NCBI RefSeq assembly: GCF_024397975.1
Contig: NZ_CP073745.1
Span: forward strand, 737,501-801,500
Reading direction: 5' to 3'
DNA length: 64,000 nt
Origin: Bacterioplanoides sp. SCSIO 12839
Lineage (GTDB): Bacteria > Pseudomonadota > Gammaproteobacteria > Pseudomonadales > Oceanobacteraceae
This document shows positions 12,480-46,171 of this stretch, piece by piece. Under the pieces are notes generated by a model. The model was given only the letters and a program-made list of their open reading frames with translations, was not told the origin of the DNA and did no database searches. Each line of letters starts with the position of its first letter. The first letter of the stretch is position 1. The position numbers were made by a program, and so were the translations under genes.

Positions 12480-12495
12480 AAGGCCAGCATAAAGC

Positions 12496-12516
12496 AAAAA
12501 ACCCGGCAAGCCGGGT
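12496..12516 (-). terminator. Rho-independent terminator of the alanine-rich protein gene
   Basis: Read on the minus strand, ACCCGGC and GCCGGGT form a perfect 7-bp GC-rich stem with a two-base loop, followed by a run of six T. It lies about 30 bases after the stop of the gene ending at 12547 and just before the ATG at 12479. Confidence 0.85.
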
Positions 12517-13089: not shown

Positions 13090-13410
13090 TAGTAAGATCC
13101 CTCTTGTGCAGAACGAATACATTGGAAGTCTAATGGTTATATCTCCATAAGCCAAGTGAAAGTGGCGTAATTTGATCACTTTCATCAGGGCTTAATATCT
13201 AGTTCTAATTCATTAGCTGGCCAATGATAAGCAAAAAATATGATCGATATATGACAAATAGAAAAGTGTTTAGATATTTTGAGACTACCGGTAAAAATGG
13301 CGGTAAATGGCAAGTTTTTTAGAGTAAGTCATTCACAAAATGAGAGCGGATGTGTAAAGTTCTGATGACTAGGGATTCTAATATTTTGAATGACACGCTA
13401 TGGACAGATT
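13090..13410. promoter_or_regulatory. Divergent promoter region of the polysaccharide locus
   Basis: A non-coding stretch of about 320 bases, clearly richer in A and T than its flanks, between the leftward alanine-rich protein gene and the first rightward glycosyltransferase. It must carry promoters in both directions. A partly symmetric element, ACCGGTAAAAATGGCGGT, lies near 13290. No JUMPStart/ops element (GGCGGTAG) was found. No promoter could be assigned with confidence. Confidence 0.45.
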
Positions 13411-14304
13411 ATGCTTATCTCAGTTTGTATGTGCACATATAAGCGGTTGCATGTAGTCGAAACGCTGAAAAGTATCGATCAACAACAATTGCCTGAAGGT
13501 ATCAATCTAGAAGTTGTGGTAGTTGATAATGACGAAAGTGCGTTCGCAAGAGATCTAGTTTTAAATCAAGCTAAGAAAATGGTGGTTCCTGTAGTTTACG
13601 CTCAGGAAACGGCGAAAAATATTGCAAAAGCTAGAAATAAAACCATCGCGAATGCTTCTGGCGAGTGGCTTGCTTTTATCGATGATGATGAAGTTGCTGA
13701 TGCGCAATGGATTAAACATCTTTTAGCCACTGCTGAAGCTTATCAGGCGGATGTGGTTTTTGGCCGTGTTATTTCTTTGTATCCAGAAAATACGCCTCAA
13801 TGGGTGATTAAATCTGGTGCCTTTGAGCGACCTACACGTCCTGATGGCTCTGTTGTAACGAGTGGTGGCACTAATTCCACTTTGGTCAATAAAGCTTTTC
13901 TTGATCATAACGCTCTAAAATTTGACGAGGCTTATGGTCTTACCGGCGGTGAAGATGCCGATTTATTCCATAGAATGCACGAGCTGGGAGCTAAATTAGT
14001 TACATCTAATAATGCTACCGTGTCAGAAGAGGTCGCCCAAGATCGACTTAATTCATCGTATATCTTAAAAAAATGTTTCAGAGTTGGTGAAACATACACA
14101 CGCTATCGACTGCTTGATCAAGCCTCTTCTAAGAAAATTCGTTATATGGCTGAAAACTCTCTAAAGGGATTGGTGTTTTTAGTGTGGATGTTGTTGCTTT
14201 TGCCAATGGGGAAAAATTCATATTTTAAACCGTTACTTGGTTTTGTAGATAAAGCCGGAAAGCTAAAAGCGCTATTTTCTAAACGTGTGGTTGAGTTGTA
14301 CTGA
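13411..14304 (+). CDS. Family 2 glycosyltransferase
   Basis: Inverting GT-A glycosyltransferase that adds a sugar from a nucleotide donor to the growing undecaprenyl-linked repeat unit at the inner face of the membrane. The 297-residue protein starts with the family pattern MLISVCMCTYKR and has the metal-binding DxD-type motif in LAFIDDDEVAD near residue 90, plus GGEDADLFHRM near 187 in the acceptor region. A hydrophobic C-terminal segment (LVFLVWMLLLLP) may anchor it. The frame also has an ATG at 13390 (MTRYGQI), but the ATG at 13411 gives the usual family N terminus. Its stop overlaps the next gene by one base. Confidence 0.85.
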   Translation: MLISVCMCTYKRLHVVETLKSIDQQQLPEGINLEVVVVDNDESAFARDLVLNQAKKMVVPVVYAQETAKNIAKARNKTIANASGEWLAFIDDDEVADAQWIKHLLATAEAYQADVVFGRVISLYPENTPQWVIKSGAFERPTRPDGSVVTSGGTNSTLVNKAFLDHNALKFDEAYGLTGGEDADLFHRMHELGAKLVTSNNATVSEEVAQDRLNSSYILKKCFRVGETYTRYRLLDQASSKKIRYMAENSLKGLVFLVWMLLLLPMGKNSYFKPLLGFVDKAGKLKALFSKRVVELY

Positions 14305-15545
14305 TGAGGCTGCTGGAAGGGAATGGCAGCTCTATCTCATACCTATGGGAGAAATACGGTTTCTGTCTCGTGCTGTTGTTTTGCCTTGGTGTTTTTCAGG
14401 CTGATTTAACGAGTAAAGGCGGTATGATGGAGGCTGACTTTTCACAAAGGATGGCCAATAAATCCGGCGGCAATTTCATCAAACAACTCTTCTGGATTAG
14501 CTTTTTCCTTTTCTATATCAGTCGTTTTTTTCTAGTTAATAGTTTAGCGTCCAAAGAATTGGGCAAAAAGCTATTTTGGTTGTTGGTCTTACCCTCGGTG
14601 GCCTTAGTTAGCGCGATTTGGGCTGAACAGTCCAGCTACGTGATTAAGCGGTCTTTCTTTCAGCTCTGTTTCATTTTTACGGTTTGTTTATCGTTTTATT
14701 ACAGTTATCAACGCGGTGGTTTATACCGTTCCGTGGTGGTGGCAGTTTGCGTGGTTTTTCTGTTAACGCTCATCTCCATTGCGCTTGGGGCTGGTTTTAC
14801 CCCGTCTGGCGCATTATCTGCTTATGTGGCTGGAAAAAATGTTAATGCCATTAACCTCATCGTTCTGATTGCACTTGTGACGCTTTTGATTGTTCATATG
14901 GGTGCAAGGAAAGAATTACTCTGGATGACTTTTGGTTTGATGGCGTTGCTTATACTGACCAAAAGCAAAACCAACATATTCATAGCGTGTCTTTTCTTTT
15001 TTCTTGTTTGGCTACGTCCTGTGTTTTCCACCCCAGTAGTGCTTTCTCTGTTTACTGGTGCAGTAATGTTATTTGTAATAGTACCTTTGGTTACTCTGAC
15101 ATTGAACTTTGAATGGAACCCAGGCATGTCTTTAGAACCTGATGCTTTAACGGGCAGGGGGTTTATTTGGGATACGTTGTATTTTGACATCAAGACCTTT
15201 GACAAGGTACTGCTCGGTTATGGTTATGGTGGCTACTTTGGTACAGGATCTATACCGTTTTATTTTGACGATGACTTTAGTTTTATTAAACGCATTACGA
15301 CGGCACATAATGGCTATTTGGAATTAATTCTCCAATTAGGATATATCCTGACGCTTTTCGTACTTTGTTTTATTGCCTATCTAATTAAAGGATTTTCTTA
15401 CGGCTGGCAGGTCTCTGCTATGGCCATTCCTATCATTCACAACTTAACGGAATCTTCGATCTTTCGAGATCAGAATATGATTTGGTTATTGTGCTTAATA
15501 GTTATCACTTCTACGTGTTTTAAGTTGGAGAAGGCAAAGTTATGA
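14304..15545 (+). CDS. Wzy-like O-antigen polymerase/ligase
   Basis: Polytopic inner-membrane protein of 413 residues, probably the polymerase that links repeat units in the periplasm. About ten hydrophobic segments are visible. The large loop near residues 270-345 contains GRGFIWDTLYFDIKTFDKVL, GYGYGGYFGTGS and TTAHNGYLELILQLG, matching the Wzy_C pattern in which a loop Arg and the HNGYLE motif are conserved. Its position between glycosyltransferase and acyltransferase genes, with one- and four-base overlaps, supports the polymerase role. The donor polymer is unknown. Confidence 0.8.
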   Translation: MRLLEGNGSSISYLWEKYGFCLVLLFCLGVFQADLTSKGGMMEADFSQRMANKSGGNFIKQLFWISFFLFYISRFFLVNSLASKELGKKLFWLLVLPSVALVSAIWAEQSSYVIKRSFFQLCFIFTVCLSFYYSYQRGGLYRSVVVAVCVVFLLTLISIALGAGFTPSGALSAYVAGKNVNAINLIVLIALVTLLIVHMGARKELLWMTFGLMALLILTKSKTNIFIACLFFFLVWLRPVFSTPVVLSLFTGAVMLFVIVPLVTLTLNFEWNPGMSLEPDALTGRGFIWDTLYFDIKTFDKVLLGYGYGGYFGTGSIPFYFDDDFSFIKRITTAHNGYLELILQLGYILTLFVLCFIAYLIKGFSYGWQVSAMAIPIIHNLTESSIFRDQNMIWLLCLIVITSTCFKLEKAKL

Positions 15546-20966: not shown

Positions 20967-22394
20967 ATGGCAATATCCAAAGATTTAAATAAAGCAATTA
21001 TTCGAAGTATTACAGGTAAATACGCGTTATACGTTATACAAATACTGTCTCTTATCCTACTGTCTCGAATTTTTACTCCAGAAGAATTTGGCGTTATTGC
21101 TGCGGTTCAAGTAATTGCTCTTTTCTTTCAGATGGTTGCAACCTCAGGACTAGCTCCAGCAGTGGTGTTTCATGATGGGTTAACCGATGATAAACGTGAT
21201 GGAATTTTTAGTGCATCGATCTTAATCGGGGTCGTATTGGCCATTCTTTTTGCATTCTGCTCTTCTCCTTTTTTGATCTGGCTTGGTATTGAAGACAGCT
21301 GGATGTTAACGATTTTACTATCGATAAACATATTATTTGCCAGCGTTTCGATGTTGCCTGTGGCTGCTCTGCAAAAAGATGAAATGTTTATTAAGGTATC
21401 CTCAGCCGAGGTAATTGCAGAGCTTGTTTTGCTGAGTGTATGCCTATTTTTATTCTTCTATTATCAATGGGGGCTCGAAGCTTTAGCCATTAAGATTCTA
21501 TTAACGCCTTTTCTACGATTTGTATGTTATTTCTATTTTTCTAGTAACACTCAACTGGGAAGACCTCGAATTGGTAAGGATGTTGGCGCATTCGGAGAGC
21601 TCTATCAATTTGCAAAATTTCAGGTGTTATTTAACTTTTTAAATTTCTTTTCACGCAATTTAGATACCTTGTTGGTCACTAAGTATTTCGGTACCGCGGT
21701 GGTTGGATTTTACGATAAGTCTTATCAATTAATGCGTTATCCTTTGCAATTGTTCACCTTTGCAATTACGCCTGCCTTACAACCTGTGTTAACTAAATAT
21801 AAAGATCAACCTGATGTAGTGCAGAAAGAGTTTTATCGAGTGGCTTCTAAGTTAGCGGTTGTAGGGCTTTTTGCATCAAATGTTCTTTATTGGTGTGCTG
21901 CCGATGTACTTTTTATTATGTTTGGTGATCAGTGGTTTGGTGCGACTGATATTTTGAAAGTACTTGCGGTGTCCATCCCTTTACAGATGGTGCTAAGTTC
22001 CACAGGGGGGATTTATCAAGCCTTTGGGGATACCAAGAGCTTGTTTATTTGTGGTGTCTTTTCATCGGTTGTGAATGTATCCGCTATTGTCATAGGGATA
22101 GCTATGAATGATATTTTGTGGCTATGTTTCTTATTGATTGGGGTCTTTATTCTGAACTTTATTCAGTGTTTTTGGCTGATGCATAAGTCGGTATTTATAG
22201 CTGTTCAGCCTATAAAGTTTCTCTGTTTACTCACTCTGTGTTTATTACCTTACTGTAATTTGTTCTTCTTTTCTGTTTCAGACGTTTATCCAGATCAGCT
22301 TTTAACTTCGTTTATGGATGCTTCTTTTGTGACATGTATTTCTATCGCTTTTTCTGCGGTTTTTTTCTTTATGAGTAAAAAGGTATTCGGATGA
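20967..22394 (+). CDS. Wzx-type polysaccharide repeat-unit flippase
   Basis: Membrane transporter of the PST/MOP superfamily that flips undecaprenyl-diphosphate-linked repeat units to the periplasmic side. The 475 residues contain about 12-14 membrane segments. The N terminus (KAIIRSITGKYALYVIQILSLILLSRIFTPEEFG, here split into family features: a basic start, a first helix and the LLxRxFTPEEFG motif) and NLDTLLVTKYFGTAVVGFYD near residue 235 are typical of the Wzx/TuaB/WzxC branch. It lies among glycosyltransferase and acyltransferase genes, directly abutting its neighbours. The ATG at 20967 follows the previous stop without a gap. Confidence 0.85.
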   Translation: MAISKDLNKAIIRSITGKYALYVIQILSLILLSRIFTPEEFGVIAAVQVIALFFQMVATSGLAPAVVFHDGLTDDKRDGIFSASILIGVVLAILFAFCSSPFLIWLGIEDSWMLTILLSINILFASVSMLPVAALQKDEMFIKVSSAEVIAELVLLSVCLFLFFYYQWGLEALAIKILLTPFLRFVCYFYFSSNTQLGRPRIGKDVGAFGELYQFAKFQVLFNFLNFFSRNLDTLLVTKYFGTAVVGFYDKSYQLMRYPLQLFTFAITPALQPVLTKYKDQPDVVQKEFYRVASKLAVVGLFASNVLYWCAADVLFIMFGDQWFGATDILKVLAVSIPLQMVLSSTGGIYQAFGDTKSLFICGVFSSVVNVSAIVIGIAMNDILWLCFLLIGVFILNFIQCFWLMHKSVFIAVQPIKFLCLLTLCLLPYCNLFFFSVSDVYPDQLLTSFMDASFVTCISIAFSAVFFFMSKKVFG

Positions 22395-24410: not shown

Positions 24411-24532
24411 AATGAGAAACTGATAAATTTTACTGTTATTTGTGTTACCTTTTTTGTTGGGTGTTTTAAGAAGATTTCATCCATGTATTATTGTTGTATG
24501 TATCATGTTGTTAATATTTGAGAATTACTAGT

Positions 24533-25957
24533 ATGATTACTCCTGTTATCATGGCCGGTGGCTCCGGTACTCGTTTATGGCCCATGTCACGTACGGCGTT
24601 TCCTAAGCAGTTCCTAGCATTAGGTAAGCAGCTAACCATGCTGCAGCAAACTACGGCGCGTTTGGATGGCCTGCACTCTGGCAAGCCAGTGGTAATAACC
24701 AATGAAGAGCATCGTTTTCTCGTTGCAGAGCAAATGCGTCAGCAGAGCCTTGAGGGGGATATTTTACTGGAGCCGGTCGGTCGTAATACGGCACCTGCGA
24801 TCGCTCTGGCTGCGTTTCAGTTATTAAAAAACAATCCTAATAATGTTCCGGTTATGCTGGTGTTGGCTTCTGATCATATTATTCAAAATACTGAGGCGTT
24901 TCAGCAATCAGTATTAACCTTACTGCCAGATGTTGAAGCGGGTAATTTTGGTACGCTAGGGATTGTGCCAACCGAGCCTGCAACGGGTTACGGCTATATA
25001 AAACGTGCTTCTTCTGACGTGGTGGCTGATGTCGAGCAATTTGTTGAGAAGCCCGATGCCGTAACTGCGAAAACTTATCTCGAAAATGACTACTTGTGGA
25101 ATAGTGGCATGTTTATGATTCGTGCCGATCGTTATCTGGAAGAGTTAAAGGAGTATCGGCCGGATATCTATCAGGCTTGTGAAAAAGCCATGATGGATAC
25201 TTCGCAGGATCTGGACTTTACCCGTGTTAATAAAGAAGCATTTGAAGCCTGCCCGGATGAATCCATCGATTACGCAGTGATGGAGCCGTTATCCGTGACC
25301 GGTAATGTGGTGGTTACACCACTGAATGCTGGCTGGAGTGATGTCGGCAGTTGGTCTGCCCTGTGGGAAATTGGTGAGAAGTGTGCTGATGGCAATGTTT
25401 TACTTGGTAAAGACGTTCATCAACATGCGATATTAAAAGACACACGTGATAGTTTCATCTTCAGTGAAAATCGTTTAATCACAACGTTGGGTGTTGAGAA
25501 CCTGGTAGTGGTAGATACACCGGATGCCATTTTGATCGCTGATAAAGATAAAGTACAAAACGTTAAAGAAATCGTAGCCGAGATTAAAAAACAAGGTCGT
25601 ACTGAGCACTACAGTCATCGCGAAGTGTATCGCCCTTGGGGGAAATACGACTCCATCGATAATGGCGAGCGTTACCAGGTTAAGCGCATTACCGTTAAAC
25701 CAGGCGCGAAATTGTCGGTGCAGATGCATCATCACCGTGCGGAACATTGGATTGTGGTTTCAGGAACCGCCAGTGTTACCAATGGTGATAACACTTATCT
25801 GGTGACTGAAAACGAGTCCACCTATATCCCTATTGGTCAGGTGCATGCGCTGGAAAATCCTGGCGTGATTCCATTGGAAATGATCGAAGTGCAATCGGGT
25901 TCTTATTTAGGTGAAGATGATATCGTTCGCCTCAAAGATAAATACGGTCGCGCCTGA
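24533..25957 (+). CDS. manC: Mannose-1-phosphate guanylyltransferase / mannose-6-phosphate isomerase
   Basis: Bifunctional cytosolic enzyme that makes GDP-mannose from mannose-1-phosphate and GTP and interconverts fructose-6-P and mannose-6-P. The 474 residues start [20 protein letters not shown] with the nucleotidyltransferase signature G-G-S-G-T-R and the lysine in [15 protein letters not shown] near residue 180 is the metal/sugar motif. A C-terminal cupin ([35 protein letters not shown]) is the isomerase part. A TTG at 24518 could extend the frame, but the ATG at 24533 fits the family. With manB 20 bases downstream it supplies GDP-mannose for the locus. Confidence 0.93.
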
Positions 25958-25977: not shown

Positions 25978-27345
25978 ATGACGCAGTTAAGTTGCTTTAA
26001 AGCCTATGACATTCGTGGCCGTTTAGGCGAAGAATTAAATACCGATATTGCTTATCGTATCGGGCGGGCTTATGCCCAGTTTCTGGATGCTAAAAAAGTT
26101 GTGGTAGGCGGTGATGTTCGGGAAACCAGTGAAGCGCTTAAGCAAGCACTGGCACAAGGTATGACGGATGCCGGTTGCGATGTGATTGACCTGGGAATGA
26201 CAGGGACTGAGCAAGTGTATTTTGCGGCATTCCATCTGGATGTGGATGGCGGTATTGAAGTGACGGCCAGTCATAACCCCATCGACTTTAATGGCATGAA
26301 GCTGGTACGCCGTGGTGCTCAACCGATTAGTGGCGATACCGGGCTAAAAGATATTCAGGCATTGGCTGAATCTGGCGACTTCAACAAGGTAGAGCATAAG
26401 GGGTCAGTTACCTCTCTGGATTTGATGTCAGCCTATGTTGATCACTTGCTGGGTTATGTTGACCTAAGCAATTTTAAACCGCTGAAATTAGTCGTAAATG
26501 CGGGTAATGGCTCTGCCGGGCCAAGCATTGATGCCATTGAAAATGCATTGAACCAGCGTGGTGTGCCAGTTGAATTTATCAAAGTACACCATGAGCCTGA
26601 TGCCAGTTTCCCACATGGTATTCCCAACCCTCTGTTACCCGAAAATCGTTCTGCCACGGCGGCTGCAGTGGTTGAGCACAAGGCCGATATGGGCATTGCC
26701 TGGGATGGGGATTTTGATCGTTGTTTTTTGTTTGATGAAAACGGCGAATTCATTGAAGGTTATTACATTGTTGGTTTATTAGCCGAAGCCTTTTTGCTAA
26801 AGCATCCAGGTGAAAAAATCATCCATGATCCACGTTTAACCTGGAATACTATCGATATGGTTGAGCGCAGTGGCGGTGTTGCGATTCAGAGTAAAACCGG
26901 CCATGCCTTTATCAAGGAGCGGATGAGAGCTGAAAACGCCGTATACGGTGGTGAAATGAGCGCGCACCACTATTTCCGCGACTTTGCTTATTGTGATAGT
27001 GGCATGATCCCCTGGTTGTTGGTGGCTGAGCTGCTGTGTGTTCAGGGTAAGACGATGTCAGAGCTGGTTGGTGAGCGTATGGCAGCCTTCCCATGCAGTG
27101 GTGAAATTAACTATCGCGTATCGGATGTGCCAGCTGTGTTGGCGGCTGTGAAAGTGCATTTTGCTGCCAAGAATCCGGTAATAGATACCACCGATGGCCT
27201 GAGCCTTGAAATGCCCGAGTGGCGTATGAATATTCGTGCCTCGAATACCGAACCGCTGTTGCGTTTGAATATTGAAACCCGTGGAGACGCTCAACTCGTT
27301 GACGTATTGGTAGCTGATATTGAGCGGATGATTGAGTTGGTTTGA
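25978..27345 (+). CDS. manB: Phosphomannomutase
   Basis: Cytosolic alpha-D-phosphohexomutase of 455 residues converting mannose-6-P to mannose-1-P (CpsG/AlgC type). Visible signatures are the N-terminal [16 protein letters not shown], the active-site phosphoserine loop [13 protein letters not shown] near residue 97, the metal site DGDFDRCF near 242, and the sugar-binding [10 protein letters not shown] near 322. Length is typical for the family. It is adjacent to manC in the same orientation. It could also act on glucose phosphates, as AlgC does. Confidence 0.92.
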
Positions 27346-27441
27346 TGTGCCAATACTTGGATGGAGTCAGAATCATGTGGCGCTCTATGATTAAATAGAT
27401 GCGGTGCTAGGAATAACCCACAAAAACACACGGAGGTGTTT

Positions 27442-28926
27442 ATGTATTCTATTCGTCATCATGGTGCGGTATCCGGTGTGACTGGTTCTTGCCATCAGTT
27501 AACGCTGGATTCTGGTGGTAGTGTTCTGATTGATTGTGGTTTGTTTCAGGGCGCAGAGTCGTTTGATCGTGAATCTGAAGATTCTGGCTTTGGCCAAAAG
27601 CAAATTGATTTTGATATTTCGAATGTAAAAGCGTTACTGGTAACCCATTGCCACATCGATCATGTTGGGCGTATCCCTTATTTGTTAGCCGCTGGTTTCA
27701 ACGGCCCGATTTATGCCAGCCGCGCTACTGCTGAGTTATTACCCCAGGTTATCGAAGATGCCATTAAGGTAGGCGTTTCCCGTAATCGCCAGATTATTAC
27801 TTCGGTATTACGCAGGCTTAAAAAACAGCTGGTTGCAGTAGATTATAATGACTGGCAGGCAGTGATGCCGGGTTTAAAAGCCAGGTTTAAAGTGGCGGGG
27901 CATATTCTGGGGTCGGCTTATATTGAGCTGGATGTCTTTCCGATGCAGCAGACTGCTGGCCGGCAATCGCCTGATAGAGTGATGTCAATACGGGAGCAGT
28001 CAAAACGAGTCATCTTCTCCGGTGATCTGGGGGCACCTTATTCTCCTTTATTGCCAGCTCCAAAATCGCCGTATCGTTGTGATGAGCTGATTATTGAAAG
28101 TACCTACGGTGATAGAATGCACGAAGGGCGAAAGTTACGCCGCAAGCGTTTAAAAGCCGTGGTTGAGCGGTGTTTACAGAACAAAGGTACGGTTTTAATC
28201 CCGGCGTTTTCCATTGGTCGCACTCAGGAGCTGCTGTACGAGCTGGAAGATATTATCGCCCAGACTGATCGCATTGAAGGCGATACGCTTTGGCATCATC
28301 TGGATGTCATTGTTGATTCGCCACTGGCATCCCGTTTTACCGAGCACTATCAACGTTTAAAGCATCTGTGGGATGCTGAGGCGCGGCGCAAAGTAAGCTC
28401 TGGCCGACATCCCTTATCCTTTGAAAACTTGTTAACAGTGAATACGCATCAGGAGCATACAAGGCTGGTGCAATACCTGAAAGATAGTGGTCGCCCGGCG
28501 ATTGTCATTGCTGCCAGTGGCATGTGCGCGGGGGGCCGGATGCAGAACTATTTACAACAACTGCTACCTGATGAGCGCACCGATGTGGTGTTTGTGGGGT
28601 ATCAGGCAAAAGGCACGCCCGGGCGTGATATTCAGCGCTATGGTCCTCGTTTTAGTCAGGGTAAACCACCGGGATATGTCGTCTTTGATCAGCAAGGTGG
28701 TTCTGCTGAGAAAGTCGATATACGCGCGGGTATCTATACACTCAGTGGCTATAGCGCCCATGCAGACCAGGCTGGCCTGGTCAACTTTGTTAAGCGCATG
28801 CGCCATTGGCCCAAGCATATTCGTATTGTGCATGGTGACGAGGATGCAAAGCAGCAGTTAAAGTCAGTTTATCTCCAATTGTATGATGACCATGCTCAGG
28901 ATGTGGATGTACAGATTCCGCAGTGA
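27442..28926 (+). CDS. MBL-fold beta-CASP protein with RNA-specificity domain
   Basis: Metallo-beta-lactamase superfamily protein of 494 residues of the CPSF/YsiH-like type, predicted nuclease or RNA-processing enzyme. Metal motifs are HCHIDHVGR near residue 70, the HILGS segment near 155, and SGDLGAPYSPLL near 195; the beta-CASP/RMMBL part has SIGRTQELLYELEDII, SGMCAGGRM, VGYQAKGTPGRDI and GYSAHADQAGL. The frame has a GTG at 27436 inside the strong ribosome binding site (CGGAGG); the ATG at 27442 is the likely start. Its position between manB and ugd is unusual, and no link to polysaccharide synthesis is evident. Substrate unknown. Confidence 0.82.
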   Translation: MYSIRHHGAVSGVTGSCHQLTLDSGGSVLIDCGLFQGAESFDRESEDSGFGQKQIDFDISNVKALLVTHCHIDHVGRIPYLLAAGFNGPIYASRATAELLPQVIEDAIKVGVSRNRQIITSVLRRLKKQLVAVDYNDWQAVMPGLKARFKVAGHILGSAYIELDVFPMQQTAGRQSPDRVMSIREQSKRVIFSGDLGAPYSPLLPAPKSPYRCDELIIESTYGDRMHEGRKLRRKRLKAVVERCLQNKGTVLIPAFSIGRTQELLYELEDIIAQTDRIEGDTLWHHLDVIVDSPLASRFTEHYQRLKHLWDAEARRKVSSGRHPLSFENLLTVNTHQEHTRLVQYLKDSGRPAIVIAASGMCAGGRMQNYLQQLLPDERTDVVFVGYQAKGTPGRDIQRYGPRFSQGKPPGYVVFDQQGGSAEKVDIRAGIYTLSGYSAHADQAGLVNFVKRMRHWPKHIRIVHGDEDAKQQLKSVYLQLYDDHAQDVDVQIPQ

Positions 28927-28998: not shown

Positions 28999-30165
28999 AT
29001 GAAAATTACTGTTGCAGGCACAGGATACGTCGGTTTATCCAATGCGATGTTACTGGCACAACATAACGATGTCGTGGCCTTGGATATTGATGAACACAAG
29101 GTGGCTTTATTAAATGATCGCCAGTCACCGATTGTTGATAAAGAAATTGAAGAGTTTTTGGCCCGAGACGATCTCAGCTTTCATGCGACATTGGATAAAG
29201 AAGCCGCTTATAACGGCGCTGATTTTGTAATCATCGCTACCCCGACAGACTACGATGTTGAGACCAACTACTTTAACACCTCCAGTGTTGAAGCTGTGAT
29301 CAAGGATGTGATGACCTTTAACCCGAGTGCGGTGATGATCATTAAATCTACCATTCCGGTTGGCTTCACGCAGCGAATTAAGCAGGAAGTTGGCTCTGAT
29401 AATATTATCTTCTCGCCAGAATTCCTGCGAGAAGGTAAGGCCTTGTACGATAATCTGTACCCATCACGTATTATTGTGGGTGAAGACAGCGAACGTGCCC
29501 GCACATTCGCAGCTCTGCTGGCAGCTGGTGCTATTAAGCAGGACATCAATCAGCTGTTTGTGAATTCGACTGAGGCTGAAGCCGTTAAGTTATTCTCTAA
29601 CACCTACCTGGCAATGCGTGTGGCTTATTTTAATGAGCTGGACAGTTATGCCGAAGTGCACGGCTTGAACAGTCGTCAGATCATTGAAGGTGTCGGCCTG
29701 GATCCACGTATTGGTGATCATTACAACAATCCTTCATTTGGCTATGGCGGTTACTGCTTACCAAAAGATACCAAGCAGTTATTGGCAAATTTTCAGGATG
29801 TGCCGAGTAATATGGTACGCGCGATTGTCGATGCTAACACCACCCGAAAAGACTTTATTGCAGATTCAATTATTGCTCGTAACCCGAAGGTGGTAGGTAT
29901 ATATCGTTTGGTTATGAAGTCTGGTTCTGATAACTTCCGCGCATCGGCCATTCAGGGCATTATGAAACGTATTAAAGCCAAAGGCATTGATGTTGTCATT
30001 TACGAACCCACTATGTCTGAATCTGAGTTCTTCCGTTCCCGGGTTGAATCGGACTTTACTCAGTTTAAGGCAGATTGTGATGTCATTATTGCCAATCGTA
30101 TGGCTGATGAGCTGAATGACGTAGAAAGCAAAGTTTATACTCGTGATTTATTTGGCAGTGATTAA
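28999..30165 (+). CDS. ugd: UDP-glucose 6-dehydrogenase
   Basis: Cytosolic NAD-dependent enzyme oxidising UDP-glucose to UDP-glucuronate in two steps. The 388 residues equal the E. coli Ugd length. The Rossmann motif is at the start ([20 protein letters not shown]), [16 protein letters not shown] follows, and the catalytic Cys is in [15 protein letters not shown] near residue 253. [20 protein letters not shown] marks the substrate region. It supplies UDP-glucuronate for the polysaccharide made by this locus. A Rho-independent terminator lies about 130 bases after its stop. Confidence 0.93.
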
Positions 30166-30324: not shown

Positions 30325-30483
30325 TGCATTTAATATGACGTTTTTTTTAAATTGATATGACTTAATGCGACAGGGAGTAGTTAATTGTAAAATGATGTGA
30401 TAGCTTCCGATTTCACGGACTACATTTCCAATGTAATGGATTTGGAAGCAGACTGAAAAGTAAATCAGTCAAGGATGATTCTT
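30325..30483 (+). promoter_or_regulatory. Promoter and structured leader of the initiating transferase gene
   Basis: Between the terminator and the ATG at 30484 lies a leader with consecutive inverted repeats. GCTTCC (30403-30408) pairs with GGAAGC (30444-30449), enclosing a perfect TACATT/AATGTA hairpin (30421-30435, loop TCC). GACTGA (30451-30456) pairs with TCAGTC (30465-30470). The ribosome binding site AAGGA follows at 30471-30475. The upstream T-rich segment near 30340-30365 probably holds the promoter. A regulatory role for the hairpins is inference. Confidence 0.5.
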
Positions 30484-31887
30484 ATGACCCATCAAGGAAT
30501 GATACGCTCTAATCAGGGAAGTTTTTCTGCTGGTTATCGTCTTATAGATATGCTTATTATCATAAGCTGTTTGATCGTTTCTTCTGGTATTTATGATATC
30601 ACCGTTGATGCAGGCTATTTGTTGGTTTGTTTGTTGGGTGTTATTGGTTTCTATTTTATTGCTGAATCTTCTGGTCTGTATGGTTCCTGGCGAGCAGCTT
30701 CGTCATTGCGAATGTTCATGACAACGATCATTGCTTGGAGTGTCTGCTGTTGTTTGTTGTTACTGGTTGGTTTTTTTGCCAAGGCCAGTGTTGATTACTC
30801 GAGGTTAGTTATTGGTACTTGGATGTTATCGACCATGGTTTTGCTCTTGAGTTGGCGTTTGTTATTACAGGAAATTTTAAAAGTATTTCGAAGCCAGGGG
30901 TATAACAGTCGTCATGCTGCAGTGGTTGGCTTAAATGACAACGCAATTCGCATGAAAAGCGAGTTAATGAATAGCCCTGAGACTGGTATACGATTTGAAG
31001 GTTTTTTTGATGATCGTAGCCATCAGCGGTGTGCTTCAGATTTTCCGGATGAGCAGTTGCAAGGCACTATTGAAGATTTATTAAATCGCACTAAATCCGG
31101 TGAATTTGATCTGATCTTTATCGCTTTGCCACTCAAAGCACAAAAGCGAATTGCTCAAATTCTGGAACGTTGTGGTGATACCACTGCCAGTGTTCATCTG
31201 ATTCCCGATTTTTTCACTTATAACCTGATCAATGCTCAGCTGGGCAATGTCGGCAATGTGCAAACCATCAGTATTTACGACACCCCATTTGCGGGCTTTA
31301 ACGATATCTTGAAGCGCTTGTTTGATATCATATTTTCAAGCTGTGTTTTGATGGTGATTGCATTACCTATGCTGGTAATTGCATTGGCAGTGAAGTTAAC
31401 TTCACCTGGGCCAGTGATTTTTAAGCAATATCGCTACGGCTTAGATGGACGCAAGATTCAGGTTTGGAAATTCCGTAGCATGACAACGATGGATAATGGC
31501 AACAAAGTCGTACAGGCTCAAAAGAATGATGCTCGTATTACAGCCGTTGGAGCATTTATCCGAAAAACGTCTCTGGATGAACTGCCACAATTTATTAATG
31601 TATTACAGGGTAGAATGTCTGTGGTTGGCCCTCGACCACACGCTGTAGCACACAACGAAGAGTACCGCCGGCTTATTCCTTATTACATGTTGCGTCACAA
31701 AGTAAAACCCGGTATCACAGGTTGGGCTCAGATCAATGGCTATCGTGGTGAAACCGATACGCTGGATAAAATGGAAGGGCGTGTTGATTATGACCTGGAC
31801 TATATTCGAAACTGGTCATTACTGATGGATATTAAAATTGTATTTTTAACTTTCTTTAAAGGGTTTGTTGGCAACGATGCTCGCTGA
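30484..31887 (+). CDS. Undecaprenyl-phosphate sugar-1-phosphate transferase (WcaJ type)
   Basis: Inner-membrane enzyme that starts repeat-unit assembly by moving a hexose-1-phosphate (usually glucose) from UDP-sugar to undecaprenyl phosphate. The 467 residues show four N-terminal membrane helices, a central Rossmann-like domain, a fifth hydrophobic segment near 290, and the bacterial sugar transferase domain: KRLFDIIFSSCVLMVIALP, GPVIFKQYRYGLDGRKIQVW, KFRSM, RKTSLDELPQFINVLQGRMS and VGPRPHAVAHN. The ATG at 30484, eight bases after AAGGA, is preferred over the ATG at 30475, which overlaps that site. It heads the second transcription unit of the locus. Confidence 0.88.
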   Translation: MTHQGMIRSNQGSFSAGYRLIDMLIIISCLIVSSGIYDITVDAGYLLVCLLGVIGFYFIAESSGLYGSWRAASSLRMFMTTIIAWSVCCCLLLLVGFFAKASVDYSRLVIGTWMLSTMVLLLSWRLLLQEILKVFRSQGYNSRHAAVVGLNDNAIRMKSELMNSPETGIRFEGFFDDRSHQRCASDFPDEQLQGTIEDLLNRTKSGEFDLIFIALPLKAQKRIAQILERCGDTTASVHLIPDFFTYNLINAQLGNVGNVQTISIYDTPFAGFNDILKRLFDIIFSSCVLMVIALPMLVIALAVKLTSPGPVIFKQYRYGLDGRKIQVWKFRSMTTMDNGNKVVQAQKNDARITAVGAFIRKTSLDELPQFINVLQGRMSVVGPRPHAVAHNEEYRRLIPYYMLRHKVKPGITGWAQINGYRGETDTLDKMEGRVDYDLDYIRNWSLLMDIKIVFLTFFKGFVGNDAR

Positions 31888-31916: not shown

Positions 31917-32339
31917 ATGGCTAAAGTTGCATTATGTTTGTATACCATATTCTTAATGAGCTTAAGTATAGGCAAGTCACTGGGGTATCACACCGATAGT
32001 ATTCTGGCTCTCGAGCGAGCTATGTTTGGTGACAAATGGATGCATTTTATTTTATCGATACCTTTGTCACTGATGCTGCTTGTGGTTTTGCATCAGCTAG
32101 GTAGAAAAGCTTATTCTGATGCGTTATACGCTTTACTGTTCCTGGTTCTGATTTTAGGGCTGGATGAGCTAAGTCAATTCTGGATTGGCTCAAGGCATTT
32201 TGATTGGCGGGATACATTGAGTGGAGTTGCTGGTGTAATGGCTGGCGCTTTAGTTTTTTTCTTCTGGCAAGTATTACTCCGCTTGTCATGCATTATGCGG
32301 CGTCATGGTTTGATAATAGGGAGCATCGGGAAGCGATGA
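31917..32339 (+). CDS. VanZ-like small membrane protein
   Basis: A 140-residue inner-membrane protein with four predicted helices. The pattern GDKWMHFILSIPLSLMLL near residue 38, LDELSQFWIGSRHFDWRDTL near 82 and GVAGVMAGALVFFFW resembles the VanZ-like family: conserved D/K-x-x-H in helix 2, and E-x-x-Q-x-x-x-x-R-x-x-D-x-x-D just after helix 3. VanZ homologues often accompany polysaccharide loci, but their biochemical role is unsettled. The stop overlaps the next gene by four bases, so translation is probably coupled to the outer-membrane barrel. Confidence 0.7.
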   Translation: MAKVALCLYTIFLMSLSIGKSLGYHTDSILALERAMFGDKWMHFILSIPLSLMLLVVLHQLGRKAYSDALYALLFLVLILGLDELSQFWIGSRHFDWRDTLSGVAGVMAGALVFFFWQVLLRLSCIMRRHGLIIGSIGKR

Positions 32340-33538
32340 TGAAACTTAACACGGGTATCACTTTTTTTATGGCGTTGATCAGTGGCTCTGTATTGGCTGT
32401 CGAGCCAATCGGCAGAAGCCTTGGTAGTGGTATTGCAGTCTACCCTGATGTTAAAGCCGAAGTTGAGCATAACGATAATATCTACTTGCTTGAAAATAAC
32501 ACAATAGACTCTGTAATTACGCGAGTCTCACCCGGAGTAACTTTTAAAGGTGACATGCCAGCGCTGCAATGGCAGGCAGGTTATCGCTTTGAACAAGCGT
32601 TTTATAGTGAAGATGGTGATGATGACTATTTTGATCAGGATCTTAATGTGGATCTTGATTATGAACTGAATAGCTATCATCAGATTGCATTTGATGCGGG
32701 TTTCCACGACGGGCATGAAGCACGGGGTGCAGGTTCTATTGAAGGCGGTTTGGCTCTGTTTCTTGAGGCTCCTGATGAGTATGATGAATACGATGCTAAT
32801 CTGGAATATAAATATGGCGCTGACGAGTCTTTGGCTGATTTTAATGCCAAGCTTGGCAGTTACCAGAAGCGCTTTGAAGACAATGAAACCCGAAATGGTA
32901 TAAACATTTCCAATGCCGATCGCGATTATGATCAATGGAATGCATTGTTAGGTATGGACTTCACTATCAGCCCGGCAACTAAAGCGGTGGTGGAACTTTC
33001 AAATACGGAAGTGAGTTATAAAGAAGACAGTGATGACTTTCGTGAAGGCGGAACTATTCGTGCATTAGCAGGTTTCCGTTGGGATATTACTGGTAAAACA
33101 ACTGGTGAAGCAAAATTTGGTACCTCAACCCGGGACTTCAAAAATGGTGATGCAGATTCTGAAACACGCTTCAGTTGGTCGGTTGATTTAACCTGGAAGC
33201 CTCAACTGCAGTCGTCCGTAGCTTTCTATTCGGCACAAAGTAACGATGAAACTTATCGTGTTGGTAACTATATAGATAACCGTTATAGCCAAATAAGCTG
33301 GGATCACAGCTTCTCTACGTTTATTGCTGCGGGTTTGGAAGGTAGCTTATCTCATGATGATTATGTGGGTTCCGAGCGTGAAGATGACATAACCTCACTA
33401 TCAGCTAGTGTAACCTATTCACCGCGTATCTGGATGGATGTGAAGGCCTCTCTGAAACATGAGAACCGTGATTCCGAAGCGGACAATCTGGATTACTCTC
33501 GTCAGGTATTCAATGTTTCTGTGACTTTAGCATTATAA
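32336..33538 (+). CDS. Outer-membrane beta-barrel protein of the polysaccharide locus
   Basis: Exported protein of 400 residues (ATG at 32336, or the adjacent one at 32339) with signal peptide MKLNTGITFFMALISGSVLA. The rest consists of alternating amphipathic strands and acidic turns (VKAEVEHNDNIYLLEN, YRFEQAFYSEDGDDDYFDQD, ASVTYSPRIWMDVKASLKHE) and ends with a strand terminating VSVTLAL, as expected for a barrel of roughly 16-18 strands resembling BBP2_2-type porins. It directly precedes a short Wza-type protein, so it may form the outer-membrane pore for the polymer, as proposed for Wzp-type porins in Myxococcus. That role is inferred from context. The frame is open upstream to 32204. Confidence 0.7.
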   Translation: MMKLNTGITFFMALISGSVLAVEPIGRSLGSGIAVYPDVKAEVEHNDNIYLLENNTIDSVITRVSPGVTFKGDMPALQWQAGYRFEQAFYSEDGDDDYFDQDLNVDLDYELNSYHQIAFDAGFHDGHEARGAGSIEGGLALFLEAPDEYDEYDANLEYKYGADESLADFNAKLGSYQKRFEDNETRNGINISNADRDYDQWNALLGMDFTISPATKAVVELSNTEVSYKEDSDDFREGGTIRALAGFRWDITGKTTGEAKFGTSTRDFKNGDADSETRFSWSVDLTWKPQLQSSVAFYSAQSNDETYRVGNYIDNRYSQISWDHSFSTFIAAGLEGSLSHDDYVGSEREDDITSLSASVTYSPRIWMDVKASLKHENRDSEADNLDYSRQVFNVSVTLAL

Positions 33539-33622
33539 TTTTTCTGCTTTTAACGTAATATTCAGATTCTGAGGGCTGGCTGCTGTAAGCCCTCTGCTCG
33601 CAGTAAGTTACAGGATGTACTC

Positions 33623-34180
33623 ATGTCGCGCTTTTTATGTCTTCTTTTTTTCGTTGCTTTTCCTTTATTCTCTGTTGCAGAAGTTGATGCCTACCGACTT
33701 GGTGCCGGTGACCTTATAAGTATCAGTGTATACGATGAACCCGACCTCGATATTGAAATGCGCATCGGTCTATCCGGTTCTATTTCTTATCCTTTTCTGG
33801 GGGATGTTGCGGTTTCAGGCCTGAGCCCTTCAGAGCTTGAAAAAAAGCTGACCTCCGGCCTGAAAGGCCCATACTTGATTGACCCTAATATCACTGTTTC
33901 AATTATTGAATATCGTCCATTTTATGTGATTGGTGAAGTGGAAAAGCCGGGTAGTTATGCCTTTCATCCGGGTCTTACCGTTAATCGTGCTATCTCGATT
34001 GCCGGAGGCTTTACCGATCGTGCCTCTCGCTCCAGCATTTATGTGATTGATGATCAGCAGAAGTTAAAAGAACTGATGCAGCCAGACAGTGTTGAAGATG
34101 AACAAAAAAGAAAAAAAGTAAAACTGTTTGATTTTGTTCAGCCTGGCAGCGTGATCACTGTCGAGCAAAGCTTTTTCTGA
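33623..34180 (+). CDS. Short Wza-type polysaccharide export protein
   Basis: Periplasmic export protein of the Poly_export/SLBB family, 185 residues, with signal peptide MSRFLCLLFFVAFPLFSVA. YRLGAGDLISISVYDEPDLD begins the Poly_export domain and RPFYVIGEVEKPGSYAFHPG starts one SLBB domain. Classical Wza is about 380 residues, lipid-anchored and has a C-terminal outer-membrane helix. Here there is no lipobox cysteine, only one SLBB unit, and no C-terminal helix. It probably forms a periplasmic ring between the Wzc homologue encoded 12 bases downstream and a separate outer-membrane barrel encoded upstream. Confidence 0.83.
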   Translation: MSRFLCLLFFVAFPLFSVAEVDAYRLGAGDLISISVYDEPDLDIEMRIGLSGSISYPFLGDVAVSGLSPSELEKKLTSGLKGPYLIDPNITVSIIEYRPFYVIGEVEKPGSYAFHPGLTVNRAISIAGGFTDRASRSSIYVIDDQQKLKELMQPDSVEDEQKRKKVKLFDFVQPGSVITVEQSFF

Positions 34181-34192
34181 GGAATATGGAAT

Positions 34193-36382
34193 ATGAATCA
34201 AAGGTCTGAACTAACCAGTCAGCCAGTGATTGAGGTGATCGATCTTTCTTATTACTGGAATATTATTCGCAGAAATCTAACGACTATTATTGCCTTATCT
34301 GCCGTTGTTACCATTATCACGGCACTGGTGGTTTTCTCGTTAACACCTAAATATGTTGCAACTACAACACTGCTGATTGAGGCAGAAGAAACCAACCTGC
34401 TATCCATCGAGGAAGTGTATGGTATCTCTTCAGATTCCAAAGAGTATTTTCTGACTCAATTTGAAATCCTGAAGTCGCGTGACATTGCCAGACGAGTTGT
34501 TGAAGGCCTCAATCTGATTGATAACCCTGAATTTAATCCCTTTCATCCAGCTACAGAAAAAGGCTTTAGTATTAAATCTCTGATCATTGATGAAGAGGAG
34601 CTTCCAGCCCCGGAAAAGATCATTAAGGTAACGATCGATAACTTTTGGAAGTCAATTACGATCTCTCCTGTCAGGAAGACACAACTGGTTAAGATATCGG
34701 TTGAAAGCCGGAACAAGGCCTTCACCGCAGAGGCAGCTAATGCGGTCGCGAATGCCTATATTGATAGCCAGTTGGAAGCAAAAGTAGGGTTGAACAACCA
34801 GGCTTCAGGTTGGTTGGGTGGCCGTTTAGGTGGGCTTAAAGAAAGGTTAGAAAAGTCAGAACAAGAGTTGCAGCAGTTTCGGGAAGCGAACAGTTTGGTC
34901 GATGCTGAAGGCGTAAATACCTTTTATCTTAAAGAATTAGAACGCATCACGGAGAAGTTGGTTGATGCTCGTAATAACCGCTCTAACATCGAAAGTACAT
35001 TTAAGCAGTTACAATCATTACCAAACCTGACCTATGAAAATCTGAGCGTACTGCCTGCAATTCTGAAGCACCCTTTGATTGTGCGTCTGCGTGAACAGGA
35101 GACGATTGCTGAGCTGAAGGTTTCTGAACTGAGTAAGCGTTATGGGCCCAAGCACCCGCGTATGATTGCAGCACAATCGGATGTAGATGCAGTAAAAGAC
35201 TCTGTATTAATTCAGATGAAGCGCATTGCTGACGGTATTGAACAGGATTATCTGGTGGCTAAAACTCAGGAGCAATCACTTGAGCAGTCATTCCAGAACA
35301 TTAAGAAAAAGATACAGCAACTGAATCGCAAAGAGTTTGAGCTGAATGAGTACACTCGTGAAGTGCAGGCGAATCGATCTTTATATGATGCTTTTTTTAA
35401 TCGTGTACGTGAAACATCAGCGACAGGTGGTTTGCAAACGGCGAATGCACGTATCGTTGACCCGGCAGTTTTACCGGATTTCCCAGTAAAACCGAAGAAA
35501 AAATTAATTGTTGCTCTGGCGATGGTAGCCAGCTTTATGTTTGGTATTGCATTGGTCTTTCTTAAAGATGCGCTTGATGCGACGATTAAAAACAGTGACG
35601 ACGTTACGAAGAAGTTATCGACCTCCATTGTTGGCTTAATACCATTTGTAAAGCTGGATAAAAAACTAGCTGAAGACTCTGTTAACCATATGGCCAAAGC
35701 TTACATCAGCGATCGACATGTCGGTTTTTCAGAATCCGTTCGTACACTGCGGACCAGTCTGGCACTGGCATCGTTACAATCGCCGCATAAGGTGCTGTTG
35801 TTTACTTCTTCAGTGCCTGGTGAAGGCAAAACGACGACTTCATTGAATCTGGCTGCGGCTTATGGTCAGGTGGAAAAAGTATTATTAATTGATGCGGATA
35901 TGCGCCGGCCAACGGTGGCTAAACAATTGCAAATGGCTGCGGCGGCACCTGGTTTATCCAATGCTATTCTTGATGTCGAGCAGCTGGATAATAGTATTCA
36001 TCATTTTGATGATCTCAATATTGATGTCATGCCTGCCGGAGTATTACCGCCTAACCCTCTGGAACTGCTGTCTTCTCCAGCCTTTGCTGAATTGTTAGAT
36101 CGCTTAAAGCGGCGTTACCAACGCATTATTATTGACTCCGCACCGATGCAAATTGTCAGTGACGCTTTGTACTTGTCGACACTGGTGGATGGCACTGTGT
36201 ATGTGATCAAAGCAGACTCTACCAAGGATAAATACGTCAAAGGTGGAGTAGAGCGCCTGCAGCAGGCCAATGCCAATGTATTAGGTGTGGTGTTGAATCA
36301 GGTGGATGTTGAAAAAGAAGCGCGCTACGGCGATTATCAGGGTGGTTACTACAGCCAGTATGGTTATACCTCTGAAGCGTAA
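34193..36382 (+). CDS. wzc: Wzc-type polysaccharide co-polymerase and tyrosine autokinase
   Basis: Inner-membrane protein of 729 residues controlling polymer length and export. A Wzz domain lies between two membrane helices (about residues 30-50 and 435-455), with a long periplasmic coiled coil (KERLEKSEQELQQFREANS near 220). The cytoplasmic BY-kinase has Walker A (SSVPGEGKTTTSLNLA near 538), Walker A' (LLIDADMRRP near 564), Walker B (RIIIDSAPM near 645) and a tyrosine cluster at the end (YGDYQGGYYSQYGY). It autophosphorylates these tyrosines in the family model. It follows the wza-like gene with a 12-base gap, and its last 23 bases overlap the next gene. Confidence 0.92.
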   Translation: MNQRSELTSQPVIEVIDLSYYWNIIRRNLTTIIALSAVVTIITALVVFSLTPKYVATTTLLIEAEETNLLSIEEVYGISSDSKEYFLTQFEILKSRDIARRVVEGLNLIDNPEFNPFHPATEKGFSIKSLIIDEEELPAPEKIIKVTIDNFWKSITISPVRKTQLVKISVESRNKAFTAEAANAVANAYIDSQLEAKVGLNNQASGWLGGRLGGLKERLEKSEQELQQFREANSLVDAEGVNTFYLKELERITEKLVDARNNRSNIESTFKQLQSLPNLTYENLSVLPAILKHPLIVRLREQETIAELKVSELSKRYGPKHPRMIAAQSDVDAVKDSVLIQMKRIADGIEQDYLVAKTQEQSLEQSFQNIKKKIQQLNRKEFELNEYTREVQANRSLYDAFFNRVRETSATGGLQTANARIVDPAVLPDFPVKPKKKLIVALAMVASFMFGIALVFLKDALDATIKNSDDVTKKLSTSIVGLIPFVKLDKKLAEDSVNHMAKAYISDRHVGFSESVRTLRTSLALASLQSPHKVLLFTSSVPGEGKTTTSLNLAAAYGQVEKVLLIDADMRRPTVAKQLQMAAAAPGLSNAILDVEQLDNSIHHFDDLNIDVMPAGVLPPNPLELLSSPAFAELLDRLKRRYQRIIIDSAPMQIVSDALYLSTLVDGTVYVIKADSTKDKYVKGGVERLQQANANVLGVVLNQVDVEKEARYGDYQGGYYSQYGYTSEA

Positions 36383-36983
36383 TGCCAATCGGCTGATCAA
36401 TCTCGCTTTGGTTAGCCTGGCATTGGTGTCGTGTTATGTATTTGTTGTGGCTTCTTTAAGGTCACTGGGCGATCAAAGACCCGTGACCGCCGATGATAAT
36501 ATCTGGCTTATCGCTGCTGACCAGCTGGCAATCAATAACCCGGATGTATCTGCCAGCCTTGCTTATTATCAGCGTCAACAAGCATTTTATTATGAGTCTG
36601 AACAACGTCAGCAATTGCTGCGCTCATCACTCAATCATTGGCAGAAAGCCTCAGCTTTGCGGCCGTTATGGCCGTACTACCAGCTTGGCGCGCTTGATAT
36701 CGAGGTCATACTCGATCAGCCTGCTGCGCAAATCCAGTCACGCATTACATGGGTTATCAGCCTGACTCCTAATGAACGAGGTCTGGATAAATCGTTGTTG
36801 GAGCTAGCAGTCTTTTCCTGGGAAAAGTTAACGCAGGGGCAAAAAGATTGGATGTTAAAGCGCTTAAAACTGCTAAATCACAGCGAGTTGCTATTTGTCC
36901 TTGAAGCGGCAGAAAAGGTAAATAAAAAGGCGCTGTTATGCGCCTATTTGCCGTTTACGAAAATACGTCGCTACTGTCGCTAA
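36360..36983 (+). CDS. Small membrane protein at the end of the polysaccharide locus, VpsP-like
   Basis: A 207-residue protein whose ATG at 36360 lies within the tyrosine-cluster codons of wzc. One N-terminal membrane segment (LINLALVSLALVSCYVFVVA) anchors a periplasmic helical domain (SEQRQQLLRSSLNHWQKASA and following). Family assignment is uncertain; its place after wzc and single-helix layout resemble the VpsP group of Vibrio-type polysaccharide loci. Upstream ATGs in frame exist (36306), but they fall deeper inside wzc. The final codons contain the terminator of the convergent gene. Confidence 0.6.
   Translation: MVIPLKRNANRLINLALVSLALVSCYVFVVASLRSLGDQRPVTADDNIWLIAADQLAINNPDVSASLAYYQRQQAFYYESEQRQQLLRSSLNHWQKASALRPLWPYYQLGALDIEVILDQPAAQIQSRITWVISLTPNERGLDKSLLELAVFSWEKLTQGQKDWMLKRLKLLNHSELLFVLEAAEKVNKKALLCAYLPFTKIRRYCR
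36924..36945 (-). terminator. Terminator of the secreted methyltransferase gene
   Basis: On the minus strand, AGGCGC-ATAACA-GCGCCT followed by TTTTTATT forms a compact intrinsic terminator about 50 bases after the stop at 36997. It is located inside the last codons of the convergent rightward gene, so those bases do double duty. In the rightward direction the hairpin is followed by ATTTG, too weak to terminate. Confidence 0.75.
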
Positions 36984-36996: not shown

Positions 36997-37797
36997 TTAG
37001 GGCTTACGAAACTTCAGCGTCATACGATCGCTTTCGCCAATCGCAAGAAATTTCTCTTTATCAACATCACCCAGTCGTAACGATGGTGGTAGCGTCCAAA
37101 CGCCTTTCGGGTGGTTTTTAGTATCTTTACTGTTCGCGTTCACTTCGGAACCCGCAATAAATTCAAACCCGGCTTTTTCGGCCAGTTCTTTTACATACGT
37201 TTCACTGACATAACCGGACTGAACCATTTTTTCGTAAGAAAATGAATCAGGCGCTCTGTGTTCTACCACACCCAGAATACCGCCGGATTTTAATGCCTTA
37301 AAGGCTGCATTAAAAACGGCTTGCTCCTGTTGGTTACGCATCCAGTTATGCACATTACGAAAGGTCAGTACTTTATCGGCACTGCCATCGTCAGCCATTT
37401 TCAGGTGTTTTGGCGGTTCCAGCTGAGTGATCTGGATATTGCCGTAACGCTCTGGTTTTGTCAGGAATTTGCTTTCGAATTCGCCGCGCAAACGGCGGAA
37501 AAAACCGACCTTGGAATCTGTTGGCCAATGAGCCGCAATCAGCTGACCATTATCTTTTAATAGTGGCGCCAGAATTTCGCTGTACCAGCCGCCACCGGGC
37601 CAGATCTCTACGACCGTATCGCTTGGTTTGATGTCAAAGAAGGCCAGGGTTTCTGCTGGGTGACGAAACTGATCCCGATTTCGCTGTTGCTCGCTGCGGT
37701 GGCTTTGGTCACCGATGTCCAAAGCCGTTGGTGCCTGCTGAGCCAGGCTGTTGCCAGATAAAACCAATGCGGCAGAGAGCAGAAGTGTCAGTTTCAT
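36997..37797 (-). CDS. Secreted class I methyltransferase-fold protein
   Basis: A 266-residue protein with a clear signal peptide (MKLTLLLSAALVLSGNSLAQ) followed by a Rossmann-type methyltransferase domain. Motif I is VVEIWPGGGWYSEILAPLL near residue 61, and VLTFRNVHNWMRNQQEQAVF near 143 corresponds to the motif IV region. GGILGVVEHRAP follows. Homologues with export signals are known in gammaproteobacteria, but the source of S-adenosylmethionine outside the cytoplasm is unclear, so the catalytic role is uncertain. A LysR gene lies 21 bases upstream on the same strand. Confidence 0.78.
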   Translation of the reverse strand: MKLTLLLSAALVLSGNSLAQQAPTALDIGDQSHRSEQQRNRDQFRHPAETLAFFDIKPSDTVVEIWPGGGWYSEILAPLLKDNGQLIAAHWPTDSKVGFFRRLRGEFESKFLTKPERYGNIQITQLEPPKHLKMADDGSADKVLTFRNVHNWMRNQQEQAVFNAAFKALKSGGILGVVEHRAPDSFSYEKMVQSGYVSETYVKELAEKAGFEFIAGSEVNANSKDTKNHPKGVWTLPPSLRLGDVDKEKFLAIGESDRMTLKFRKP

Positions 37798-46152: not shown

Positions 46153-46171
46153 AATACTTACCTGTCATGGT

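Follow-up and report, generated by a model that had tools for sequence, protein, structure and literature searches.

A short outer-membrane polysaccharide export protein and a separate beta-barrel as the probable composite translocon of an exopolysaccharide locus in Bacterioplanoides sp. SCSIO 12839

Composite translocons, in which a short outer-membrane polysaccharide export (OPX) protein is completed by a separate beta-barrel, have been proposed and called widespread in passages of two papers (Schwabe 2022, mBio, PMC9601211; Saidi 2022, Microbiol Spectr, PMC9603273). Passages of the former name VpsN/VpsM of Vibrio cholerae, a gammaproteobacterium, and describe EpsX and EpsY of Myxococcus xanthus as interacting and stabilising each other; those of the latter define Class 3 OPX proteins, name Wzp and give its roles in export. 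How does a locus of Bacterioplanoides sp. SCSIO 12839 compare with these systems? The window analysed here is a stretch of 64,000 nucleotides (contig NZ_CP073745.1, positions 737,501 to 801,500, forward strand; assembly GCF_024397975.1), and its positions 32336 to 34180 hold a barrel gene followed by a short OPX gene. The locus very probably encodes the outer-membrane part of an exopolysaccharide pathway of the Wzx/Wzy-dependent type, with a composite translocon in which the barrel would complete the OPX protein. An earlier, sequence-only reading of this DNA had proposed such a completion, and the proposal holds up well because of the family assignment of the OPX protein and the barrel, the absence of a Wza_C match in the genome and the conserved gene order. 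The locus is a further example of the system published in 2022, including for a gammaproteobacterium, and is not new in kind. It looks functional and supplies a clear case of the two-piece exporter, complete in its parts, from a genome that gave no Wza_C match; the published picture stays unchanged.

The genes at and around the pair are the following, in window coordinates.

30475..31887, + strand: initiating undecaprenyl-phosphate glucose phosphotransferase of the WcaJ/VpsL type (NCBIfam TIGR03023, 549.6 bits against a cut-off of 410.75)
31917..32339, + strand: VanZ-like membrane protein of 140 residues (Pfam VanZ, E 8.1e-08, 33.4 bits against a cut-off of 30.1)
32336..33538, + strand: outer-membrane beta-barrel of 400 residues with a signal peptide, proposed pore of the Wzp/EpsX/VpsM type (Pfam BBP2_2, E 4.8e-38)
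33623..34180, + strand: short OPX protein of 185 residues with Poly_export and SLBB, without lipobox and without Wza_C (Pfam, alignments)
34193..36382, + strand: polysaccharide co-polymerase with a tyrosine autokinase domain, Wzc/VpsO type (Pfam Wzz, GNVR and AAA_31; TIGR01007, 167.5 bits against a cut-off of 108.05)
36306..36983, + strand: VpsP-like small membrane protein (NF038257, 25.8 bits, under the cut-off of 125)

The start of the VpsP-like frame is uncertain, and choosing a later ATG would lessen its overlap with the kinase gene. The order of phosphotransferase, barrel, OPX protein, co-polymerase and VpsP-like protein matches that of the V. cholerae vps genes, which we take to be vpsL-M-N-O-P. 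Two Vibrio loci, L039 and L041, are colinear with it over the part read, which reaches to the co-polymerase. Like the window, the vps-II operon combines a short OPX protein with a coupled barrel, VpsN and VpsM, in a gammaproteobacterium (passages of PMC9601211). It differs from the window, which has a VanZ-like gene inserted before the barrel (V. cholerae being compared by description only).

The likeness extends to EpsX/EpsY and Wzp/WzaX-S-B of Myxococcus xanthus, also compared by description, where a D1D2-only (Class 3) OPX protein stands beside a barrel (18-stranded there, probably so in the window) in a Wzx/Wzy pathway. However, EpsY is a predicted lipoprotein in passages of PMC9601211, as is every myxobacterial D1D2 OPX protein but one, whereas the OPX protein of the window has a plain signal peptide, as do about 30% of Class 3 proteins according to passages of PMC9603273. 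In the Class 1 system of Escherichia coli, homology with the window proteins covers the kinase/co-polymerase Wzc and, in Wza, the D1-D2 portion. By contrast with Wza/Wzc, the window OPX protein has no D3, D4 helix or lipobox, and the hairpin of the co-polymerase is longer (216 against 140 residues). The barrel, short OPX protein and co-polymerase also match NCBIfam models of the EpsL/EpsE/EpsF/EpsG (XrtB-associated) and XrtA loci, but with scores under the cut-offs and with no exosortase match in the genome.

The OPX protein matches Poly_export (PF02563, E 5.8e-22), SLBB (PF10531, E 7.5e-12) and also SLBB_2; neither Wza_C, GfcC nor any further Pfam family was found in it at E<=0.01. Its single hydrophobic stretch, residues 4-22, belongs to a start that resembles a signal peptide; neither a lipobox-like motif nor a C-terminal hydrophobic helix was seen in the sequence. 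Aligned with Wza of E. coli K-12, it spans the D1 and D2 portion and stops there, with D3 and the membrane helix D4 missing (with the limits of Wza D1-D4 taken partly from PMC9601211). Pfam, hydrophobicity and this alignment agree with what the sequence-only reading had stated, namely that a 185-residue protein with neither lipobox nor C-terminal membrane helix is unable to span the outer membrane. Residues 22-185 also align with 9n9a, a solved export protein of 186 residues, reaching the final residue of both (the database output for 9n9a gives a molecule name and no organism). Thus, the protein has the make-up by which Saidi 2022 defines Class 3, Poly_export and SLBB without Wza_C or GfcC, and its 185 residues lie within the size and domain limits of Schwabe 2022 (at most 280 residues, D1 and D2 only). 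The C-terminal outer-membrane helix and lipoprotein signal of Class 1 (Wza) are both lacking.

All 20 aligned short OPX proteins end in Phe-Phe, as does 9n9a, and the more distant proteins of L051-L054 end in WF, LF, ML and RF. This conserved C-terminus is a candidate site of contact with the barrel. A lipobox-like motif occurs in four of the 20: its placement is clear in the enterobacterial plasmid proteins of L042 and L043, and doubtful in L024 (at residue 13, within the hydrophobic stretch) and in L033 (where the N-terminal extension is probably untranslated).

The 400-residue protein with a signal-peptide-like start that the sequence-only reading had placed directly upstream of the OPX gene was recovered as the frame 32336-33538; a second in-frame ATG, at 32339, would give 399 residues. 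It belongs to BBP2_2 (putative beta-barrel porin 2), is the sole BBP2_2 match in the genome, and had no match to the Wzi family (Caps_assemb_Wzi) when scanned against Pfam (E<=0.01). In Schwabe 2022 the criterion is an outer-membrane barrel gene within five genes of the OPX gene; here the two adjoin. The 19 relatives aligned with it share 19-46% identity with the window protein, and hydrophobicity averaged over the alignment alternates residue by residue over much of the chain. Strands were called on these 20 proteins by a dynamic programme with hand-set thresholds, not calibrated on known barrels. At thresholds 3.0 and 3.5 it called 17 strands and skipped a gap of 29 residues that fits one more; elsewhere very short turns alternate with long loops between successive strands, and the extra strand would restore this alternation there. 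The pattern scored 45.0 at threshold 3.5, against 12.5 +/- 3.6 in 200 shuffles. Eighteen, the strand number that Schwabe 2022 gives for the barrel of a composite translocon, is the likeliest number here, though not a proved one.

Could a full-length Wza encoded elsewhere serve the locus, as the sequence-only reading had allowed? None was found by sequence. The genome, a single contig of 3.90 Mb, encodes two further Poly_export proteins; by contig coordinates their genes are 2.53 and 1.35 Mb away, each in another cluster. One, of 538 residues (L037), has as neighbours the ATPase and permease of an ABC transporter (Pfam ABC_tran and ABC2_membrane) and a 414-residue protein that resembles a co-polymerase on reading and has no Pfam match. 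The other, of 757 residues with many SLBB domains (L038), lies beside an AAA_31 ATPase. Wza_C was not found in either by Pfam (E<=0.001), nor did a Wza_C search of the genome give a match, E. coli being positive among the 14 controls. Both proteins end in a hydrophobic stretch, which may be a different kind of helix.

The barrel was found in 15 of 35 genomes searched, its own included, and in all 14 relatives that hold it the barrel is followed by the short OPX gene and the co-polymerase. This adjacency exceeds chance. In 12 of the 14 the phosphotransferase is upstream; in L035 it is downstream, and in L036 none was found. A VpsP-like relative occupies the same place in 12. A protein search of a plasmid collection with the OPX protein returned 456 records, 57 of them with a query coverage of at least 80%, and the best-scoring named OPX relatives among the matches listed were gammaproteobacterial. 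Five records were chosen among the 20 listed (Vibrio sp. THAF191d, Pseudoalteromonas sp. THAF3, Vibrio campbellii, an E. coli plasmid and an Enterobacter plasmid), and all five have the order phosphotransferase, barrel, short OPX, co-polymerase, the co-polymerase of L042 being only 359 residues long. Among eighteen further records, picked so as to sample long as well as short OPX proteins, the alphaproteobacterial L052, L053 and L054 (barrel by profile) and L063 (barrel by annotation) combine a short OPX protein and a barrel in a looser gene order. Two scans of genome contigs gave no barrel relative and three distant OPX loci, which were left unused.

As a separate observation, the phosphotransferase-barrel-OPX set of L042, the E. 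coli plasmid, lies amid insertion sequences, with an annotated IS26 transposase just behind the 359-residue co-polymerase frame.

In the proposed mechanism, D1 and D2 of the short OPX protein would form a periplasmic ring, presumably by oligomerisation, atop the inner-membrane co-polymerase/kinase. The polymer would then cross the outer membrane through the separate barrel, which the OPX protein is predicted to contact. Since the OPX protein has no recognisable lipid anchor, its attachment to the outer membrane would depend on the barrel alone. An OPX protein without a lipobox, in a genome free of Wza_C, is thus a convenient system for asking what ties the periplasmic ring to the outer membrane.

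Is the co-polymerase adapted to a short partner? Passages of Schwabe 2022 (PMC9601211) propose that D1D2 OPX proteins partner co-polymerases with an extended periplasmic part. The helical hairpin between two bracketing anchors has 216 residues in the window co-polymerase and 140 in Wzc and Etk, a difference of 76, so the window protein shows the extended periplasmic helices of that proposal (a proposed, not a defining, trait). The hairpin has 213-218 residues in all 22 full-length co-polymerases encoded beside a short OPX protein and a barrel (window, L023-L036, L039-L041, L043 and L052-L054), 216 in the cut-off co-polymerase of L063, and 140 in all seven beside a Wza-type OPX protein (Wzc, Etk, L046-L050). 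The L042 co-polymerase, as a 359-residue frame, was left out of the count and that of L062 was not alignable; L051 and L057 have no co-polymerase by profile, and none is annotated in the stretches of L058, L059 and L061 (annotation only).

The notion that hairpin length acts as a ruler compensating a short OPX protein was attractive at first, and was weakened by several cases. A counterexample is Rhizobium L060, with an OPX protein of 389 residues and a hairpin of 215; in L056 (OPX of 446 residues) the hairpin has 189 residues, and in L055 (OPX of 246 residues, no barrel found) it has 237. In a tree of kinase domains the seven 140-type proteins group together in a single clade (with support of 93/100 and recovery in 96% of 200 bootstrap trees), so the difference may reflect one evolutionary event. 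Given L060, L056 and this tree, hairpin length is compatible with the Schwabe proposal and is no independent proof of it.

The sequence-only reading had the VanZ-like protein translationally coupled to the barrel. In the window, the VanZ frame and the barrel start do share an ATGA overlap, but coupling as a conserved trait was rejected: at conserved start sites the barrel starts inside VanZ in the window only, the overlap being absent from all eight VanZ-bearing relatives. If the first possible start codon were used, the barrels of L028, L031 and L034 would overlap VanZ. VanZ was detected between the phosphotransferase and the barrel in eight of the 14 relatives with the barrel-OPX pair. A search with the window protein found none in the other six, nor in the five named plasmid-collection records, although a divergent copy could be missed; in L029, L030, L032 and L033 no VanZ-like frame of at least 60 residues was seen in the gap between phosphotransferase and barrel. 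With VanZ taken from its first possible start codon, five of the eight relatives show it overlapping the phosphotransferase gene at its end (two of them, L027 and L034, needing a non-ATG start). VanZ follows that gene after 3 bases in two others and after 52 in the last, compared with 29 bases in the window.

What might the VanZ-like protein do? Passages of PMC12419801 propose a lipid-head-group enzyme role for the VanZ family, within the lipocone superfamily, link VanZ-1 to exopolysaccharide genes including Wzc and Wzz, and propose that it acts on lipid-linked sugars. The window protein has four hydrophobic stretches, which together with the proposed enzyme role point to the inner membrane, and action on lipid-linked sugars would fit its position beside the phosphotransferase. 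VanZ might be a dedicated pathway enzyme on the undecaprenyl-linked polymer or repeat unit, acting in carrier release or recycling and tied to the phosphotransferase rather than the barrel, but we consider this rather unlikely. If true, such an enzyme would fill the missing terminal-release step of these export systems.

Several observations weigh against a composite translocon. By the barrel profile used here, L051 (OPX of 208 residues) and L055 have no barrel; OPX proteins of similar length without a BBP2_2-type barrel therefore exist. Barrel-type proteins also stand beside long OPX proteins, with GfcD by GfcE in L045 and YjbH-domain proteins in L059 and L061, and such neighbours appear in Table 1 of PMC9603273 too; an adjoining barrel alone is therefore weak evidence. 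The strand count varies with the threshold (18, 17, 17, 16 and 15 across thresholds 2.5 to 4.5 on the alignment, by the uncalibrated programme), and on the window sequence alone 21, 21 and 19 strands were called. Single-sequence structure models were unusable, with a mean predicted local distance difference test (pLDDT) score of 36.2 for the OPX protein and 31.0 for the barrel, and the barrel profile found nothing better than E 0.1 (3dwo) among solved structures.

Alternatively, the barrel might play at the cell surface the part that Wzi plays for capsule, anchoring or organising the polymer, with export taking another route, for example through one of the two longer OPX proteins. Wzi is likewise an 18-stranded barrel (passages of PMC9601211), and the hydrophobic ends of both longer OPX proteins might span the membrane. 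Yet the barrel matches BBP2_2 and, at E<=0.01, not the Wzi family, a Wzi search of the genome found nothing (though no control was positive either), the longer OPX genes are megabases away beside ABC-transporter genes or their own ATPase, and relatives keep the barrel-OPX pair gene for gene, so that surface anchoring is very unlikely. The short OPX protein and barrel might instead form a translocon of which VanZ is a necessary part. The ATGA overlap and the place of VanZ between phosphotransferase and barrel in eight relatives speak for this, but the pair occurs without detectable VanZ in six relatives and the five named records (subject to the divergence mentioned above), and the features that point VanZ to the inner membrane also make it highly improbable. 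An exosortase (XrtA/PEP-CTERM) exopolysaccharide locus is almost certainly not the explanation and was rejected: TIGR03014, TIGR03016, TIGR03027 and TIGR03028 match weakly, all far under their cut-offs, and the genome search gave no exosortase match, its only positive control being an archaeon.

The composite translocon would serve a pathway of which further genes lie upstream in the window.

13390-14304, 16638-17816, 17826-18977 and 18970-19965, + strand: four glycosyltransferase-type proteins flanking the Wzy candidate (Pfam)
14304..15545, + strand: candidate Wzy polymerase (Pfam Wzy_C, 35.9 bits against a cut-off of 31.7; seven hydrophobic stretches)
15542-16633, + strand: acyltransferase-like protein near the Wzy candidate (Pfam)
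20967..22394, + strand: Wzx-type flippase (Pfam Polysacc_synt_3, E 5.7e-48)
24518-25957, + strand: ManC-type sugar-nucleotide gene (Pfam, NCBIfam)
25978-27345, + strand: phosphomannomutase (Pfam, NCBIfam)
28999-30165, + strand: UDP-glucose dehydrogenase (Pfam, NCBIfam)

From the ManC, phosphomannomutase, UDP-glucose dehydrogenase and acyltransferase genes, the polymer is probably an acidic, acylated heteropolysaccharide containing mannose and glucuronate. A second Wzy_C/O-antigen-ligase protein is encoded at 11214-12509 on the minus strand, and its 78.7 bits are above the 35.9 bits of the candidate at 14304-15545. At 22391-23392 a right-handed beta-helix protein, perhaps polymer-modifying, has the flippase on one side and an acyltransferase, with overlapping frames, on the other.

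Amid the sugar-nucleotide genes, 27436-28926 encodes a beta-CASP metallo-beta-lactamase protein (Beta-Casp, RMMBL). Its top NCBIfam matches, type VII Cas14 and aCPSF1, are both far under cut-off. An RNA-processing enzyme within an exopolysaccharide cluster is unexpected.

Beyond the cluster, three minus-strand frames of 703, 307 and 266 residues (38961-41072, 41113-42036 and 36997-37797) had no Pfam match at E<=0.001, and an Rfam scan of the window at the gathering threshold gave no match. Further on, the minus strand carries a row of genes at 42534-50813 for a cyclopropane synthase, a DUF1365 protein, an amine oxidase, a short-chain dehydrogenase, a SnoaL-like protein, a desaturase, a photolyase and a MerR regulator, which presumably resembles a light-response operon.

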